From positions 1 through 29,124 of the IMG/VR virus record IMGVR_UViG_3300030406_002810: DNA of 29,124 nt; one strand, written 5' to 3'. The notes below the pieces were generated by a model. That model was not told the DNA's origin, did no database searches, and saw only the letters and a program-made list of their open reading frames with translations. Within the stretch, counting starts at the first letter, position 1; every line of letters begins with the position of its first letter. Positions 2,665 through 10,142 of the stretch are shown piece by piece. This DNA is from a virus. The translations under genes were made by a program, and so were the position numbers.

Positions 2665-5100
2665 CTATGAAAAAAAGTATTTACTGTTTAAAACTTCTTT
2701 AGCTTCAAACACACCATATTTTGGTGGTTCAGGTATGTCAAGCTCTTTATGTTTGTTTTGTAATTGTTTTTTAAAATCTCTTAATAAATCAACGTTAAAT
2801 ATATTTACAGTTTGTTCTCTAAGTATTTTTGAAAACAACTCACAGTTATTTGAATGGGTTCCAAAAGAATCATGTATCATACTAAAATCATATATGCCTT
2901 GTTTGTTTGCTTCAATAACACTTTTTGTTAACAAAGAAGCGTCAAGACTGTGAACAAAGTTTGGACTGATACCATTTCTTTGTGAACGTTTACACAAAGA
3001 ATCTGTATGGTGTTTAAATTTTACCCACGTAGCTTTACCACTTATTTTTGTTTTTACTGATTGTCTTGAAAAAGATTTATAATCTTGTAACACAGGAAAA
3101 CCTGTAGGTGTAACCCAAGTTATATCTACATTATTATCTGTACATATTTCAGATACTTTTTTAAGCCAGTTCATACATTGCGTAGGTTTATCTAATACTT
3201 CATTGATTGAATCCCACACATGTCTTGCTAAATAGCCAGTTACTTTATAACGATTAGCTTCTGAAAAAGGGTTTGCTCTTCTTTCTTTTCGTAAACAATC
3301 CTGATACCATTCATCTACATAAGAACGACAAGAATAAAATGTACCGCCATATGGATAGACCATTGTTGGACGCTTAGCTAATTTTCTATCAATACCAAAA
3401 GTAAGCCATGCTGTAGCAATATCATCTCCTAAAATTTTATCGCTTTCTAATTTTTGTATTACTCTTTTAGATACTTCTCCATAAATATCTTGTGGTGAAT
3501 CGGTAGGAGCTACGTTAGTGGCGTAGGCTCCTACTTCATCACGCATTAGGAGGGAGAGTAGTTGCAAACCATTATTTGTGGCATCCATAGACACTGGTAA
3601 ATGTGTAGTAAGTTTACCTTCACGTGTCCATGTTGCCCATTCAAAACACCAAGCTAAAAACTGCCAAGGTTTATCAGCATCAACATAATCTTTATAAGTT
3701 ATTGGATTATCAGCAATCGCTTGTGCTTGTTTTGTAAAATCATATGCCCATTGTTCTCTTTCATTAAGAGTTACTTTATCATTACCAAATGTATTTGCAC
3801 CATGGATAGCTAACCAACGTGCTTGTTCTTTTGTTTTTAATTTCATTGGACGATTAAATTCAAGTAAAGCTCTACTTGGGTCATTACCCTGAATGCCTAA
3901 AAAACTTGGAATGTTATATATTCTACCTCTAAAATCACATTGAGATGGATAAAAGAAACGCACATCTCTAAATTTATCAGCAAGATGTAATGTTTTAGCT
4001 ATTAACAATCGTCTAGATTTAGTTGATAAATTTAAATCATATATCTTTGCTGCTTGTCTTCTCCATTCTCTATTTGATTCTTCATTTGTTTTTATGTCAT
4101 TTGGTACTGGAGGAAACTCTTCGTCTTTTCTGTTTGGAACATCACCTATAATTAAATTATTATCCCAAGACCACTTCATCACATCTAACACTTTTTTATT
4201 AACTTGCCATGGTGTTTGTTGTATTAAGTTTACTGCTTCCATTGGTTCATTCAATGGTTCAGTTATGTTACGTAAGTAATCCATATTAGTTGTTTTTATA
4301 AAAGGAACATGAGGTAAATATAAAGTAGCTTCATCGTATCCACCATCCCATACATTCTTCCAATCTTTAGGTACATCTATGGTAGGTAACCAAAAAGGTT
4401 CCATGAGTTCTCTGTCTGTATTAAAGTCTTCAATCCATTTTAATAATTCAGGTGTAGCTCCAACATATCTTGTTTGTTTCATTCTTTTTTTGTTAGAGTT
4501 TTTCTTTTCTAATATGTATGTATATTCAATCAAACTTGTAGACATACGTAACAATTCTACCATGTTCAATCCCATATTCATTTTGTCACGTAGGTTCCAT
4601 TTATTCCAATCTTCTTTACCACGTTTTTCTGCTTCGTGTTTCATAGAACCACGTACATGTCTTATCTTTGCTTTACTTCCTTTTCTTCTAGCTGCTCCAA
4701 GAAGTATACCTTCTGCTTTTTCTTCATTTGTAGCACAAAGAAAACGACATCTTAATTCATCTTCTATTCTTGCACCAAGATAAACAGCTACTTGAGATAA
4801 AGGACGTTTACGAGATATACTATCGATAATAGCTTTGATAGAAATAAAACCAATTATTTTAGAATCTAAATCTAAACAATCAATTTGATAGCGAGCTTTA
4901 TAATCATACCCTGATACAGTATCTTTCCAGTCTTGTATAGCTTCTACATATTTCGGAAGAGAAAAACGCATTAAACGTTGACCATGTTTACTTTCTAATT
5001 CAGCTTCTCTACTTTTTGCTGATTCAAGGTTAGAACGATAACGTCCCTTACCAAGTAAAACCATATCTTCATTTAATTGTTGTTGTGTTATATCGCTCAC
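2665..5100 (-). CDS. T7-like single-subunit DNA-directed RNA polymerase
   Basis: Transcribes the middle and late phage genes from phage promoters. At 811 residues it is slightly shorter than T7 RNA polymerase (883). Palm and fingers motifs are clear: motif A with the catalytic Asp in MDATNNGLQLL (about residue 505), motif B in RKLAKRPTMVYPYGG (about 575), and motif C with the second catalytic Asp in MIHDSFGTHS (about 743), preceded by NFVHSLDASLL. The start is GTG behind a strong AAGGAGG. Upstream lie a 53-residue ORF and a TTGACA-type promoter candidate. Downstream are the methyltransferase and replication genes, so it heads the early/middle operon. I could not identify its cognate promoter sequence by eye. 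Confidence 0.96.
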   Translation of the reverse strand: MSDITQQQLNEDMVLLGKGRYRSNLESAKSREAELESKHGQRLMRFSLPKYVEAIQDWKDTVSGYDYKARYQIDCLDLDSKIIGFISIKAIIDSISRKRPLSQVAVYLGARIEDELRCRFLCATNEEKAEGILLGAARRKGSKAKIRHVRGSMKHEAEKRGKEDWNKWNLRDKMNMGLNMVELLRMSTSLIEYTYILEKKNSNKKRMKQTRYVGATPELLKWIEDFNTDRELMEPFWLPTIDVPKDWKNVWDGGYDEATLYLPHVPFIKTTNMDYLRNITEPLNEPMEAVNLIQQTPWQVNKKVLDVMKWSWDNNLIIGDVPNRKDEEFPPVPNDIKTNEESNREWRRQAAKIYDLNLSTKSRRLLIAKTLHLADKFRDVRFFYPSQCDFRGRIYNIPSFLGIQGNDPSRALLEFNRPMKLKTKEQARWLAIHGANTFGNDKVTLNEREQWAYDFTKQAQAIADNPITYKDYVDADKPWQFLAWCFEWATWTREGKLTTHLPVSMDATNNGLQLLSLLMRDEVGAYATNVAPTDSPQDIYGEVSKRVIQKLESDKILGDDIATAWLTFGIDRKLAKRPTMVYPYGGTFYSCRSYVDEWYQDCLRKERRANPFSEANRYKVTGYLARHVWDSINEVLDKPTQCMNWLKKVSEICTDNNVDITWVTPTGFPVLQDYKSFSRQSVKTKISGKATWVKFKHHTDSLCKRSQRNGISPNFVHSLDASLLTKSVIEANKQGIYDFSMIHDSFGTHSNNCELFSKILREQTVNIFNVDLLRDFKKQLQNKHKELDIPEPPKYGVFEAKEVLNSKYFFS

Positions 5101-5162
5101 TAAACCTCCTTAATGATTCGATATAAATATATCTATTAAATAAAATCAATATTAATTTTTAA

Positions 5163-5324
5163 TTATTTTTTATCTTTAGAATATAAAACATTAATACTAT
5201 ATTGTATCCTTGAGATTTTACAGGATGGTTGTACAAGCTCCACTAAAAGCTTTTCTATAATATCTCTTATTATTTTTTTATCTTTATAATTTAAATGTTT
5301 ATTTATATCTTTTATTTCATCCAT
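5163..5324 (-). CDS. Small hypothetical protein upstream of RNA polymerase
   Basis: A 53-residue ORF, MDEIKDINKHLNYKDKKIIR onward, ending SKDKK. It is charged, probably helical, with no membrane segment and one cysteine. It ends 62 bases before the polymerase start and would be the first gene of the polymerase transcript from the promoter candidate just upstream. The Shine-Dalgarno is weak (AAAGATT). I do not recognise a family. Position suggests an early protein acting on the host or on transcription, but that is inference. Confidence 0.5.
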   Translation of the reverse strand: MDEIKDINKHLNYKDKKIIRDIIEKLLVELVQPSCKISRIQYSINVLYSKDKK

Positions 5325-5327
5325 AGC

Positions 5328-5370
5328 TAATCTTTAAGATTACTTTGTGTTTTCTCTATGTCAATCTTAA
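5328..5370 (-). promoter_or_regulatory. Candidate promoter with palindromic operator for the polymerase operon
   Basis: Read on the minus strand, a perfect TTGACA -35 hexamer (about 5357-5362) is followed 16 bases later by TAATCT. That -10-like segment falls inside a perfect 15-base palindrome, TAATCTTTAAGATTA (plus strand 5328-5342). A related half-site AATCTTAA lies at 5363-5370 just upstream of the -35. A repressor-type site over a host-type promoter driving the 53-residue ORF and RNA polymerase is a reasonable reading; no binding protein is identified. Confidence 0.45.
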
Positions 5371-5381
5371 AATAAAAAAAG

Positions 5382-5419
5382 TTGCGTCGGTATGTTAAAT
5401 CTTGCGTCGGTATGTTAAA
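5382..5419. repeat. Two tandem 18-bp direct repeats, 20-bp period
   Basis: TTGCGTCGGTATGTTAAA occurs at 5382-5399 and again, identical, at 5402-5419. The 20-base spacing is about two helical turns, so a protein would meet both copies on the same face. They sit upstream of the -35 element of the polymerase promoter candidate and are GC-richer than the DNA around them. I saw no other copies in the window. They could be regulator sites or iterons. Confidence 0.75.
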
Positions 5420-5446
5420 AAAATTTTTACAAAAAAAAATTAAAAA

Positions 5447-5476
5447 GTCACCAGGATTCGATAAAAAAATATCGAT
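5447..5476. repeat. Module-border direct repeat, left copy
   Basis: A 30-base stretch beginning GTCACCAGGATTCGATAAAA recurs at 8992-9021 in the same orientation with 27 of 30 bases identical. The two copies lie outside the outermost genes of the converging module. They may be recombination remnants, an ancient duplication around an insertion, or paired binding sites. Confidence 0.6.
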
Positions 5477-5512
5477 AAAAATATATCGATAAAAATATAT
5501 CGATAAAAAAAT
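5457..5512. repeat. 4 x 14-bp tandem array (ATCGATAAAAATAT type)
   Basis: Four head-to-tail 14-base units: TTCGATAAAAAAAT (5457-5470), ATCGATAAAAATAT (5471-5484), the same again (5485-5498) and ATCGATAAAAAAAT (5499-5512). Each contains the palindrome ATCGAT or a one-base variant. A single related unit occurs on the other side of the module at 9002-9021. Iteron-like arrays beside AT-rich DNA are typical of replication origins; there is no spacer structure, so it is not a CRISPR. Confidence 0.8.
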
Positions 5513-5521
5513 TTTTAATCA

Positions 5522-5620
5522 CCAGGTAACAATTTTGTAATTTTTTAAAAACTAATTTTAAATGAAAGATTAAGAAAAAATAAAAAATAATTTTAAAAAT
5601 CATTTGAAAAAAGTTTTTAA
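5522..5620. repeat. Module-border inverted repeat, left arm
   Basis: Two blocks match the reverse complement of the right border in the same order: CCAGGTAACAATTTTGTAA (5522-5540) against 8982-9000, 18 of 19 identical, and 5595-5620 against 8933-8958, 24 of 26 identical. Poly-A/T content lowers the weight of the second match, but the first contains non-trivial sequence. Both arms point into the module. Confidence 0.55.
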
Positions 5621-5756
5621 TTTTTTTTGGTTCATTTTTTACCCTGCTGTAATTTTTTGAAACCTGCTGTTTAAAAAAAATAATTTTAAAAAAAATATTT
5701 TTGCTTATTAAAAAAAGATTTAAACTTTTTAAAACTTAAAAATAGGAGCGGTTCAA

Positions 5757-6287
5757 ATGGTTACAAATAACATATATAAATTAAAACGTTATCTAAATTC
5801 ATTCGGTTATTTCGATTCAAAAGTTGTTCAAAATAGGTTGAATATAGTTAAGCGTTTAAAAGTAGATATTAAAAAAGAAAAAGGCTTTTTTAAAGTTTCT
5901 TTAAAATTAGATAATAAGAAATTTTTAAAAGAGTTTTCTTACATTTCCGATTGTGAAAAAGACGCATTCAAACAAGGGCAAGAATTTAAAAAACAAGTTG
6001 TTGTTTTATGGGTTAAATCAAGCGGTGTTCTTACAAAACCAATTGACTTAATGAAATATGCAAATCGACAAGATAGCATTTTTACACATTTAAATCGGCA
6101 AGATAGCATCTTTGAAAACGTTTGTTTAAATTGCAATTTGTATCCAGTCGTTGAAACTATATTTAATAAAATTTTTATACCTGATGATTTAAACAGATAT
6201 GTAAATGAGTATATGATTTCTGGTATTTGTTTAGATTGTCAAAATGAAGTATTTAAAAGGGAAGGCGTTGACCATGAAAACAATTAA
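5757..6287 (+). CDS. Zinc-knuckle-like hypothetical protein with 10-residue duplication
   Basis: A 176-residue protein of unrecognised family. Its N-terminal two thirds are Lys-rich (YKLKRYLNSFGYFDSKVV onward). In the middle a 10-residue unit starting NRQDSIF is directly duplicated, matching a 30-base period at 6062-6113. The C-terminal part has two cysteine pairs, CLNC and CLDC, about 35 residues apart, a likely four-cysteine zinc site. The start has a good ribosome-binding site (AGGAGCGG). Its stop overlaps the next ATG by 14 bases, so it is coupled to the gp88-like gene. It is the first gene of the rightward arm. A nucleic-acid-binding regulator or replication protein would fit, but this is inference. 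Confidence 0.7.
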   Translation: MVTNNIYKLKRYLNSFGYFDSKVVQNRLNIVKRLKVDIKKEKGFFKVSLKLDNKKFLKEFSYISDCEKDAFKQGQEFKKQVVVLWVKSSGVLTKPIDLMKYANRQDSIFTHLNRQDSIFENVCLNCNLYPVVETIFNKIFIPDDLNRYVNEYMISGICLDCQNEVFKREGVDHENN

Positions 6288-6912
6288 AGAATTAGAGCAA
6301 TCAATCGGCGGTCTTTCAAAGCCTTCTAAAATGCCTTGTTATGGGTTCAGCTTGCCCGCTTCCGCTTGCAAGATTGGAGCTCTATTGATGAACGTTGAAA
6401 ACTCAACTTGTAAAGGCTGTTACGCCTTTAAAAATAGATACTCTTTTAATGTTGTTCAAAACGCTTTGAATAGACGTTTAAACATTCTTTTAGAAGACGT
6501 TGATAAATGGCGTATCAATATAACTGAGTTAATCAGGAGAAAAGAAAAGAGCGGTTTTTTTCGGTGGCATGATTCAGGCGATTTGCAAAGTTATGAGCAT
6601 TTATCCGCTATTGTCAGAATAGCCATAGATTTGCCGAAAATTCGCTTTTGGTTGCCTACTCGAGAATATGGGCTAGTTAATGAATATATCGCTAAAAATG
6701 GCAATTTACCGCCTAATTTGACCATTAGGCTATCAGCCTATTTAAATGATAGCTACGCACCAAATATAAAGGGTTTAAAAACGTCATCAGTTAGCGATAA
6801 AAAACCGCTTATTGGCTGGAGTTGTAAAGCCCCGCAAAATTTCGGCAAATGCGGAACATGTCGGGCTTGCTGGTCTAAAAAAATTAAAAACGTTGTTTAT
6901 AAAAAACATTAA
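6274..6912 (+). CDS. gp88-like cysteine-rich phage/plasmid protein
   Basis: 212 residues from the ATG at 6274, which follows AAAGGGAAGG and overlaps the previous stop; the frame is also open for ten residues upstream. Cysteines cluster at both ends: a KMPCYGFSLPASACK block, then STCKGCYAFKNRYS, and at the C-terminus WSCKAPQNFGKCGTCRACW. The middle has FRWHDSGDLQS followed by RFWLPTRE. This layout (Cys block, CYA, W/R-x-H-x-SGD, T-R) resembles the 'gene product 88' family found in phages and plasmids, whose role is not established. The cysteines suggest a metal or iron-sulphur site. Family assignment is from memory of motifs and is moderate. Confidence 0.6.
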   Translation: MKTIKELEQSIGGLSKPSKMPCYGFSLPASACKIGALLMNVENSTCKGCYAFKNRYSFNVVQNALNRRLNILLEDVDKWRINITELIRRKEKSGFFRWHDSGDLQSYEHLSAIVRIAIDLPKIRFWLPTREYGLVNEYIAKNGNLPPNLTIRLSAYLNDSYAPNIKGLKTSSVSDKKPLIGWSCKAPQNFGKCGTCRACWSKKIKNVVYKKH

Positions 6913-6933
6913 AATTAGAAGGGATAAAAAAAA

Positions 6934-7155
6934 ATGAAATTAAAAGAATTAGAAGAACTTACATTGGAATATGTAAAGGATAAAAATTTATCGTTACCGC
7001 TTGATTTAACAAACGATAATATAAGAAAAAATTTTATAAGTTATTTAACTAAAAATAATGTATCTTTAAAAGATAGGATTTCCTTGTTGATGGGAAATTT
7101 TGAAGCATTTGAAGATGAAGAAGCAAAGGAGAAAAAATGGCAAAATATAGTGTAA
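6934..7155 (+). CDS. Small acidic hypothetical protein
   Basis: 73 residues, MKLKELEELTLEYVKDKNLS onward, with an acidic tail (EAFEDEEAKEKKW). It has a clear AGAAGGGA ribosome-binding site, and its end overlaps the start of the following small gene by 19 bases. It is predicted soluble and helical. No family recognised. It is part of the rightward operon with the zinc-knuckle and gp88-like genes; the short overlapping spacing supports co-expression. Confidence 0.6.
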   Translation: MKLKELEELTLEYVKDKNLSLPLDLTNDNIRKNFISYLTKNNVSLKDRISLLMGNFEAFEDEEAKEKKWQNIV

Positions 7156-7307
7156 TATTTACTGGTTGCGTTGAAGTTGAAGATGCGTCTTCAGAAGAGA
7201 GTGCAATTGCATATGTTAGAAATTATATAATAGATTCAGGTATATTAGAATATGAAGCTGAAAAAGTTAAAGACGATGAAGAAGCAGAAGACGAATTGAT
7301 ACTTTAA
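7137..7307 (+). CDS. Small acidic hypothetical protein, last gene of rightward arm
   Basis: A 56-residue ORF starting MAKYSVIFTGCVEVEDASSE and ending in a strongly acidic stretch (DDEEAEDELIL). The ATG follows GGAGAAAA, inside the end of the previous gene. The N-terminal pattern of alternating hydrophobic residues, then a helix (EESAIAYVRNYII), looks like a compact alpha/beta fold. The family is not recognised. The terminator for this transcript begins about 37 bases after its stop. Acidic mini-proteins in phages are sometimes DNA mimics, but nothing specific shows that here. Confidence 0.6.
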   Translation: MAKYSVIFTGCVEVEDASSEESAIAYVRNYIIDSGILEYEAEKVKDDEEAEDELIL

Positions 7308-7343
7308 AATTCAATTAAAAATAACTTTTAAAGTAACCACAAA

Positions 7344-7371
7344 AAAGCCCTTAAAATAAATTAAGGGCTTT
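7344..7371. terminator. Bidirectional intrinsic terminator between converging genes
   Basis: A perfect 11-base-pair stem, AAAGCCCTTAA against TTAAGGGCTTT, with a six-base AATAAA loop. A-tracts on the left and T-rich DNA on the right let it work on both strands. It separates the rightward genes ending at 7307 from the leftward DUF932 gene ending at 7417. A second, weaker hairpin (AGCTTAA/TTAAGCT, about 7402-7419) overlaps the DUF932 stop. Confidence 0.88.
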
Positions 7372-7416
7372 CGCATTTAGTTTTTTATAAGCCTACGCAA
7401 CCGCAAGCTTAAGGCA

Positions 7417-8253
7417 TTAAGCTGTAACGCCGATATTATATTTATTAAACGTATTTCTTAAGGCTTCGCTTCTAGATGCTGTTAAATGCGGAGTTGACCG
7501 CCAAATATTAGAAAACGCATTCTGTAAAGAATAAGCGTTCCTATCTTTAAATGCATCATGTTCGGGCTCATGCCATTGCTCTATAACTTGCCCTAATTTC
7601 GCCGAAGGAATAGCCTTATTTCGCATTGCTTCGCAAGATAATACATAAGCGTTGCGGTCATTCAAAGGCGTATTTTCAAGCATCTCAATACGCTTTAAAT
7701 TATCCGCTCTTGATTCCGCAAATGTTTCTACTGTTTCAAGCATCATTTTAGGCAAATCCGAAAGAATAAAAGTTGTATTCTTTCTTGATAAAGTAAGCTC
7801 GCCATTAAACTCTAAATTAGAGCATATAAGCGGAGCGTCACCAATTAACATAGATGAAGCAAAGCTTTTATCATGGCTTTGACGAAGACCGATAATTGTT
7901 CGGATATCGTCACGACCATTAAACCCGCTTACTTCCATCATTGAAAAACATCTTTCGCCATAAACAGTATTTTGAACATTTCTTGTTTTAGCTAATAAAT
8001 GCTTTTCTTGAACAATCGTTAAATCAAGATTATTTAACGTATCTTCAGCTAATTCTACTAAATCAAAAAATGGAACTGGCTTGTATGATTCAGTATGATT
8101 TGGCGTGAATTTGCGGTGCTCTTTTAGTGTTTCTCTTGTAACTGTCGAGCCTTCGCCTAATAAAGATAAATTAAGCTTTGGCTGTGGTTTCTCATCTTTA
8201 AAAGCAAAGCCTTCAAAATGAGTATTTGGAACTAATGAATTTAATTCTTGCAT
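7417..8253 (-). CDS. DUF932 family phage/plasmid-like protein
   Basis: 278 residues. The stretch VYGERCFSMMEVSG, then IIGLRQSHDKSFASSMLIGDAPLICSNLEFNGE and TLSRKNT, followed by a C-terminal RNAYSLQNAFSNIW, matches the DUF932 family (TIGR03299 group) common on conjugative plasmids and in phages. No biochemical role is established. Its start has AGAAGGGA, and the ribosome-binding site lies inside the end of the upstream gene. It ends the leftward arm of the module, facing the bidirectional terminator. Its presence is the strongest sign that the module has plasmid-like ancestry. Confidence 0.75.
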   Translation of the reverse strand: MQELNSLVPNTHFEGFAFKDEKPQPKLNLSLLGEGSTVTRETLKEHRKFTPNHTESYKPVPFFDLVELAEDTLNNLDLTIVQEKHLLAKTRNVQNTVYGERCFSMMEVSGFNGRDDIRTIIGLRQSHDKSFASSMLIGDAPLICSNLEFNGELTLSRKNTTFILSDLPKMMLETVETFAESRADNLKRIEMLENTPLNDRNAYVLSCEAMRNKAIPSAKLGQVIEQWHEPEHDAFKDRNAYSLQNAFSNIWRSTPHLTASRSEALRNTFNKYNIGVTA

Positions 8254-8255
8254 GG

Positions 8256-8465
8256 TTATTTTTCCCTTCTTATTTGATTTAATTTAATTGATAAATCACA
8301 TTTTTCTAAACGCAATTCATCGGCTAGTTTTTCCAGTCTTTCGATTTTACAATTTGCAATTGATTCGGCAAACGCCATATCTTGCAATTTTTTAAGACAC
8401 CATAAGCTTAAGCAAGCAAATATGATGAACCCTAAAAAGAATATTAATAATGCTATTTCTTGCAT
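8256..8465 (-). CDS. Small membrane-anchored coiled-coil protein
   Basis: 69 residues: an N-terminal hydrophobic segment (about 4-24, ALLIFFLGFIIFACLSLWCL), then a charged helix with heptad-like leucines (CKIERLEKLADELRLEKCDL) likely to form a coiled coil. This topology resembles inner-membrane spanin-like or septation-like small proteins, but no lipoprotein partner is visible, so no function is claimed. The leader and first three codons (26 bases, plus-strand 8459-8484) are repeated exactly before the DUF932 gene, and its last codons contain that gene's ribosome-binding site. Confidence 0.6.
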   Translation of the reverse strand: MQEIALLIFFLGFIIFACLSLWCLKKLQDMAFAESIANCKIERLEKLADELRLEKCDLSIKLNQIRREK

Positions 8466-8486
8466 GGTTATTTTTCCCTTCTAATT

Positions 8487-8747
8487 TTAAACTTCATATC
8501 CAAAAAATTTAACGAACCCTTTTTTGGCGTTTTTAACTTCTCGTTTAGGTAATGTTTCTTCAATTTCCAAAATCCTTGAATAAATCATTTCTTCTTTTAT
8601 TTCTAAAGCTTCAGTTGATTTTTCCAAGTCTTGCTTCATGGATATTATATTTACAACTTCATTATATTGATTTTGATATTTAATCCATTTGTTTATCAAT
8701 CTTTGATAATCACTATTTAGTGCTTTTATTTCTAATTTATTTTGCAT
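8487..8747 (-). CDS. Coiled-coil hypothetical protein, first gene of leftward arm
   Basis: 86 residues, starting MQNKLEIKALNSDYQRLINK, mostly helix with heptad-spaced hydrophobics (residues about 5-65), then a basic tail (KREVKNAKKGFVKFFGYEV). The start has a strong GGGGGT/AAGG-type ribosome-binding site about eight bases before ATG. It opens the leftward arm; the DNA upstream (8748-8886) is AT-rich and has no other gene. No family recognised. Confidence 0.55.
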   Translation of the reverse strand: MQNKLEIKALNSDYQRLINKWIKYQNQYNEVVNIISMKQDLEKSTEALEIKEEMIYSRILEIEETLPKREVKNAKKGFVKFFGYEV

Positions 8748-8932
8748 GTGGTAACCCCCTTTTAATTTTATAATTGCTTTAAAATATAGAATTGTTTTTT
8801 AAATGCAAGCTTATAAATCATTTATAATTAAACGTTAAATATTAAAAAACACCATCACATTTAAACAGATTTGAACCACTCAAAAATTAAACAACGCTTT
8901 GAAAATCGTTTTTTGTTTTTCCTGAAACTTTT

Positions 8933-9000
8933 TTAAAAACTTTTTTTGAATGATTTTTTAGATTTCTACAAAAATGTAATGTTACAAAATTGTCACCTGG
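8933..9000. repeat. Module-border inverted repeat, right arm
   Basis: TTACAAAATTGTCACCTGG (8982-9000) is the reverse complement of 5522-5540 with one mismatch, and 8933-8958 is the reverse complement of 5595-5620 with two mismatches. The order of the two blocks is kept but their spacing differs (23 bases here, 54 on the left), so the arms have diverged by insertion or deletion. Confidence 0.55.
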
Positions 9001-9021
9001 TATCGATAAAAAAATATCGAT
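8992..9021. repeat. Module-border direct repeat, right copy
   Basis: The stretch beginning GTCACCTGGTATCGATAAAA matches 5447-5476 at 27 of 30 positions in the same orientation. Within it, 9002-9021 is itself a perfect palindrome-flanked element, ATCGAT, seven A, T, ATCGAT. Only one unit is present here against four on the left side. Confidence 0.6.
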
Positions 9022-9129
9022 TAGCAATTTTATTTGCGATTTTCTAGCGATTTTTAAGATGCCTTCGGGGTAAAAAAACTTTCGATATATAACGTAAAGG
9101 GTTTCAGATTTTTGCACCAAAACAACAGG

Positions 9130-9779: not shown

Positions 9780-10142
9780 ATGTCAAAAGAAAACTTAAAA
9801 GAAGAAATCATTAGTTTAATAAATAGAATTAAAGATGAAGTTCAAATACTTTGTTTTAATATAGATAGGTTAGAAATACAAATGGCTGAAGACATAGGTA
9901 AAGAAGCTGCTAGAAATATAAAAGTTATGTTAGAAAGAGATATTAATATAACAGTTGTTTATCCTACTCTTCAGGTAGTTGATGAACTTGTATTACTATC
10001 AAAATTAAATGAACAAGGGTTTGATTTAAAAAAGATAGATTTAAAGCTATTTAAATCGTTGTCTAATACTATACATGAACAAAATAAAAAAATGGATTCT
10101 ATAAAAAGAAAACAACTTGGTAAATACTTAAAGGATACTTAG
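9780..10142 (+). CDS. Helical hypothetical protein, plus strand at genome join
   Basis: 120 residues, MSKENLKEEIISLINRIKDE onward, almost entirely charged helix with likely coiled-coil segments and a basic C-terminus (KKMDSIKRKQLGKYLK). It has a strong GGGAGAA ribosome-binding site. It is the only plus-strand gene outside the repeat-bordered module, and it faces the large terminase tail to tail. The stop codon lies in the stem of its terminator. The twin palindromes upstream suggest repressor control. Family not recognised; a small DNA-binding or superinfection-type regulator is possible but unproven. Confidence 0.65.
   Translation: MSKENLKEEIISLINRIKDEVQILCFNIDRLEIQMAEDIGKEAARNIKVMLERDINITVVYPTLQVVDELVLLSKLNEQGFDLKKIDLKLFKSLSNTIHEQNKKMDSIKRKQLGKYLKDT

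Follow-up and report, generated by a model that had tools for sequence, protein, structure and literature searches.

A divergent DUF932 gene and an inverted gp88 unit in the early region of a T7-like phage

Genes and borders of the converging module

The window analysed here is the whole IMG/VR viral record IMGVR_UViG_3300030406_002810 (29,124 bp), which represents a T7-like phage. Its minus strand carries, in this order, portal, scaffold, capsid, tail, internal virion protein and terminase genes and two late genes of 75 and 87 aa, and then, after the 87-aa gene, the module, RNA polymerase (RNAP), DNA methyltransferase and SSB. In T7-like phages the physical genome end separates the late genes on the terminase side from the early region, so the record spans this end, and several long contigs of relatives stop 230–470 bp past the 87-aa gene, consistent with a genome end there. 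The module lies at the left genome end, in the interval from the terminase end to RNAP, as judged from the window and the gene order of its relatives, and the same genome encodes a single-subunit phage RNAP; both are features of an Autographiviridae early region. A nucleotide search of phage records gave no match.

As the original prediction described, two gene sets converge (Table 1): a plus-strand arm with the 176-aa protein, gp88 and the 73- and 56-aa proteins, and a minus-strand arm with the DUF932 protein (278 aa) and the 69- and 86-aa proteins. The hairpin between them had been taken for a single strong terminator. It is real, but because an immediate U-run is present only on the minus strand, the hairpin is predicted to terminate transcription well in the DUF932 arm and less well in the gp88 arm.

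Table 1. Features in and around the module (window coordinates; a dot marks features given without a strand)
Feature	Coordinates	Strand	Remarks
T7-like single-subunit RNA polymerase	2665..5100	-	phrog_414, E 8.8e-223
Promoter-like TTGACA-16-TAATCT before RNAP	5337..5364	-	second hexamer weak; read by eye
Two copies of TTTAACATACCGACGCAA between array and RNAP promoter	5382..5419	-	direct reading
ATCGAT array, RNAP side	5457..5504	.	14-bp period (5471, 5485, 5499); same place as L081 and L166 arrays
Leader A of gp88 arm	5508..5756	+	includes CACCAGGTAACAATTTTGTAA (5520-5540)
176-aa protein	5757..6287	+	zinc-ribbon-like by inspection of the sequence, with two CxxC pairs
gp88 (PF17338), 212 aa	6274..6912	+	orientation inverted relative to relatives
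73-aa protein	6934..7155	+	no homolog in fetched loci
56-aa acidic protein	7137..7307	+	no homolog in fetched loci
Hairpin between converging arms	7343..7372	.	-14.2 and -18.8 kcal/mol; immediate U-run on - strand only
Divergent DUF932 protein, 278 aa	7417..8253	-	31–44% identity to relatives' early-region DUF932 proteins
69-aa protein	8256..8465	-	membrane helix at the N terminus and a coiled coil, by inspection of the sequence
86-aa coiled-coil-like protein	8487..8747	-	no homolog in fetched loci
Leader B of DUF932 arm	8748..9001	-	includes TACCAGGTGACAATTTTGTAA (8982-9002); homologous to leader A, inverted
ATCGAT array, late-gene side	9002..9021	.	14-bp period (9002, 9016); same place as L020 array 2436-2511
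Conserved 20-nt noncoding element TTTTGGTGCAAAAATCTGAA	9103..9122	-	after last late gene; also written TTTTGGTGNAAAAATCTGAA

Gp88 matched PF17338 well above threshold (E 5.5e-30; 105.3 bits against a gathering cut-off of 24.4), and the match of the 278-aa protein to PF06067 was sub-threshold (E 0.036; 14.3 bits against a cut-off of 23). As many as 39 of the 42 aligned members of the latter's family do match PF06067, with E values up to 0.001, and by its homology to these 39 proteins the window protein is a divergent relative of DUF932. The 69-aa protein gave a weak holin-like PHROG match (E 0.014). No homologs of the 176-, 73-, 56-, 69- or 86-aa proteins were found in the fetched loci, and those of the 176-aa protein were also absent from the viral contigs searched. 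In agreement with the original prediction, none of the seven cassette proteins was recognized as an integrase, transposase or Rep using Pfam, PHROGs, NCBIfam and PADLOC, and none (0/7) matched a PADLOC model of an anti-phage defence system at E 0.1.

The fold of gp88 was predicted with high confidence (pLDDT 94). Its best structural matches were mostly radical SAM proteins (QueE, Z 6.1; TYW1, 5.9; viperin-like, 5.8), all with Z below 8, and the motif Cys32-x13-Cys46-x2-Cys49 together with four C-terminal cysteine residues is invariant in 53 sequences. The model thus gives a weak signal of a radical-SAM-like fold, a lead rather than an assignment, from which a putative enzyme function of gp88 becomes testable. 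For DUF932 the structural comparison reached Z 7.9 at most, with unrelated folds and no clear match, and the literature text available to us holds only incidental mentions of DUF932. In bacterial genomes gp88 was found at only 24 loci, many of them on short metagenome-assembled contigs.

We analysed further the repeats at the two borders. The coordinates and counts given by the original prediction proved exact, and above chance: positions 5522-5540 match the reverse complement of 8982-9000 at 18/19, 5595-5620 match 8933-8958 (inverted) at 24/26, and the direct repeat 5447-5476 matches 8992-9021 at 27/30. With up to three mismatches, CACCAGGTRACAATTTTGTAA was found at the two border places of the inverted block only, with 0 expected. 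The similarity extends beyond these short blocks, as the whole leaders (5447-5756 against the reverse complement of 8748-9060) aligned with a score of 79.5, compared with 46.2 ± 5.2 in dinucleotide shuffles (maximum 63.5 of 500), and still outscored the shuffles when the ATCGAT arrays were removed (64.5 compared with 39.3 ± 4.8; maximum 58). On this alignment evidence, the two leaders of approximately 300 bp are homologous from the ATCGAT array to the ribosome-binding site of each arm. Transposon or insertion-sequence ends were considered and rejected, because the inverted blocks belong to these homologous leaders.

The same slot in related phages

Relatives, too, have DUF932 and gp88 in the slot that separates terminase from RNAP. 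The order TERL...DUF932-gp88-RNAP, in one direction, is present in L020, L033, L081 (/L018), L082, L086, L089, L129 and L166, and in L178 and L237 gp88 precedes the DUF932-like gene. An empty site was seen in none of the inspected relatives spanning terminase to RNAP, so the comparison for presence or absence proposed in the original prediction yielded no relative lacking genes at this site. The outer borders of the module also match those of relatives, in the 20-nt element, the ATCGAT arrays and the repeats and promoter-like site before RNAP. Since DUF932 and gp88 occupy the same terminase–RNAP slot in relatives, the region is a native part of the phage, a hypervariable early region located at its left genome end, and not an inserted replicon.

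The 20-nt element was detected, with up to three mismatches, in 25 of the 62 terminase loci, 500–1100 nt after TERL and nowhere else in those loci (at 2329-2348 in L020). By its distribution it appears to identify the DNA beside the right genome end as native to the phage, and it is a candidate genome-end, packaging or promoter signal. The window has ATCGAT arrays of 14-bp period at both borders of the module; in L020 such an array follows the late genes, and in L081 and L166 it precedes RNAP.

Such arrays also occur elsewhere, and the idea that they are unique to this clade was rejected: three copies spaced by 14 bp are present in 19 viral stretches, and most of these lack homology to the genes of this phage. 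Among the array-bearing viral contigs, L270, L274, L275, L279, L281, L282, L284 and others showed no detectable homology to the window's early, terminase, RNAP or SSB genes. It is possible that the arrays are binding sites of a widespread regulator.

In the window, L081 and L166 alike, the region before RNAP reads, by eye, as an array, tandem repeats with an AACATRCC-like core and TTGACA-16-TANNNT. The promoter-like sites of L081 (TTGACA-16-TATAAT) and L166 (TTGACA-16-TAGAAT) have the same place and 16-nt spacing as that of the window, and their tandem repeats AACATGCCC are analogous to the TTTAACATACCGACGCAA copies; matches from a sigma-70 scan were no commoner than in shuffles. A strong terminator follows gp88, before RNAP, in both L020 and L081, suggesting that RNAP is a unit of its own in relatives. 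The module had been thought to break the usual path of transcription from early genes to polymerase. This view does not hold, because relatives already separate gp88 from RNAP by a terminator, and they too have a separate TTGACA promoter-like site before RNAP.

Orientation is where the window departs from its relatives. Gp88 is on the strand of RNAP in 18 of the 18 distinct contigs holding both, and the window alone has it on the opposite strand, so that its early genes are not all on the RNAP strand; such an arrangement is usual for early genes rather than strictly defining, and the early unit of L053 departs from it too. At that locus, a two-gene early unit (545 and 322 aa) lies at 4230-7148 (-) in L053 and in the opposite orientation at 4801-7473 (+) in L036. 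This pair, the one other case of the kind in the family, sets a precedent for early units facing either way. Integrase-like genes of ~340–366 aa, recognized by reading, are present between the early genes and RNAP in L082, L129, L163 and L053, and no such gene is seen at this place in the window.

Codon use, gene trees and the origin of the block

Codon use of the cassette deviates from that of the rest of the phage (G/codon 0.239, compared with a maximum of 0.204 for windows of equal size), although there are only about seven non-overlapping windows of this size. The two arms resemble each other: arm A is predicted by arm B at 0.110, compared with 0.176 (the minimum) for the best window of the rest, and both share codon preferences, e.g. 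GTT over GTA, and GGC. As controls, the early genes of L020 and L081 did not differ in codon use from their own genomes. This result is supportive of a foreign origin, not decisive. The part of the original prediction that saw a coherent foreign unit is therefore upheld by codon use, common to both arms and unlike the rest, whereas the part that made it an integrated plasmid, replicon or satellite is contradicted by the relatives' gene content and by outer borders made of phage-family sequence. A native region had been expected to show the same genes in the same place together with uniform codon use; the main gene families are indeed in the same place, and codon use is not uniform.

The trees of individual genes differ. 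In the RNAP tree the window forms a clade with L020, L081 and L166 (support 98/99). RNAP of L020, L081+L018 and L166 is 70–76% identical with that of the window, and for terminase and polymerase of close relatives the range is 70–85%. The window DUF932 is only 31–34% identical with the L020 and L081 copies, or 31–38% when L166 is included with L020 and L081+L018. The DUF932 tree rejects a clade of the window, L020 and L081 (p-AU 0.0013); a clade with L166 added was not rejected (p 0.176), no branch of the tree is starred, and the window row is long. No conflict was found in the gp88 tree (p 0.393). Between L020 and L081 the DUF932 path is about 0.13 and the RNAP path about 0.44, and the window DUF932 is at a path of more than 2 from every relative. 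As the L020 and L081 copies are nearly identical while their RNAPs differ, DUF932 is not fast-evolving in general. The reading that best fits these sequence comparisons is that the early block was replaced by a distant, xenologous version.

Taken together, we consider it probable (roughly 75%) that the module is a marine T7-like early region in its normal place, in which the usual DUF932-gp88 block was replaced by a xenologous version with the gp88 unit inverted. This reading draws directly on the position of the module, the gene content of relatives, the codon difference, the tree conflict, the inversion in the contig and the homology of the leaders.

Accelerated divergence and a local inversion under vertical inheritance, with no horizontal replacement, would agree with the gp88 tree, with the DUF932 clade kept when L166 is added and with the fast change of early regions; it is unlikely, however, given the short DUF932 path between L020 and L081 relative to RNAP, the distance of the window copy from all relatives and the odd codon use common to both arms. 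Somewhat less likely again is an assembly chimera, built by joining the early region of another phage from the same sample at the short ATCGAT repeats or in the AT-rich leaders, or by a foldback or amplification artefact that turned the gp88 arm round. The deviating codon use, the occurrence of the arrangement in one contig only and the inverted homologous leaders, a type of sequence where foldback joins arise, all speak for a chimera. Against it, the longest exact direct match between the borders is ~19 bp and the inverted matches are short too, below usual assembly k-mers; the gp88 arm has no bounding long inverted repeat, each arm has a complete leader, and both outer flanks carry the family elements in the expected order. 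An integrated plasmid-like replicon or satellite of ~3.5 kb, the circle of which would have divergent promoters round an iteron-like ATCGAT region and one terminator, would explain the layout, symmetrical if circularised at the 27/30 direct repeat, the foreign codon use and the repeats at both borders, but is very improbable, as DUF932 and gp88 are already in the slot in relatives, the arrays are common to the phage clade and lie within native flank sequence, neither a Rep, integrase or transposase nor an empty site in an inspected relative was found, and the proposed plasmid link found no plasmid relative, with no plasmid match for DUF932 and only eight weak actinobacterial matches for gp88.

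A suggested route of exchange and known systems

Under replacement of the early block, the usual DUF932-gp88 genes would have been swapped for the divergent version and the gp88 unit (176 aa, gp88, 73 aa and 56 aa) inverted, with two units from homologous outer leaders converging on the hairpin. Crossover for this swap may plausibly have taken place in the arrays on either side of the cassette. By analogy with T7 and LUZ100, host RNA polymerase may initiate, after DNA entry, in each outer leader and also from a separate promoter that precedes RNAP; both arms would be expressed early, and RNAP, as its own unit, would then switch on middle and late genes. RNAP need not be affected when the gp88 unit is turned round, since a terminator already shields it in relatives, and inversion of a unit with its own promoter and terminator is expected to be largely harmless. 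A broader idea, in which the early region of the clade is an exchangeable and invertible cassette by virtue of the arrays and the pair of inverted leaders, with whole host-takeover units swapped or flipped at these borders while the late genes and RNAP stay put, is doubtful.

The closest arrangements are those of the IMG/VR T7-like contigs L020, L081+L018 and L166, which share with the window the slot, DUF932 then gp88 and the 14-bp ATCGAT arrays, and, in L020 and L081, the terminator before RNAP. They differ in their single direction, other small genes and DUF932 sequence and, for L020 and L081, in uniform codon use. Marine Autographiviridae of Roseobacter (CRP-125 and others) and Pelagibacter (HTVC019P type) have a T7-like order as in the window, and CRP-125, CRP-113 and CRP-171 have a gp88 relative upstream of RNAP on the same strand (across record ends). 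However, these marine phages have no converging arms and their RNAP is only about 33% identical with that of the window; CRP-125 carries MarR and integrase genes before RNAP, neither of which is seen in the window.

As far as the available sections of the reports go, the early region of T7 and LUZ100 is driven by host promoters, with RNAP separately controlled in LUZ100 (PMC10134795), and the early regions of the temperate T7-like Rhizobium vTRX32-1 group are variable and probably horizontally acquired (PMC8631192). Unlike the window, no inverted early unit is described in those sections for T7, LUZ100 or the vTRX32-1 group (PMC10134795, PMC8631192). Our analysis suggests a route by which host-takeover genes of T7-like phages may change, in which a whole early block is replaced at conserved border elements and one unit is flipped, and the lineage keeps its polymerase and structural genes. 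It also connects the DUF932 and gp88 families with the early region in an abundant family of marine phages.

Two further genes of the window lie outside the module. An AT-rich 120-aa ORF (9780-10142, +), oriented opposite to terminase and the 75-aa gene on either side of it, is without a homolog in relatives, and its codon use resembles that of the rest of the phage. The DNA methyltransferase (1812-2645, -; phrog_363, E 8e-42) lies between RNAP and SSB, unlike in L020, L081 and L166, where SSB follows RNAP directly. Its codon use is the most deviant in the window, suggesting that it was probably acquired recently.
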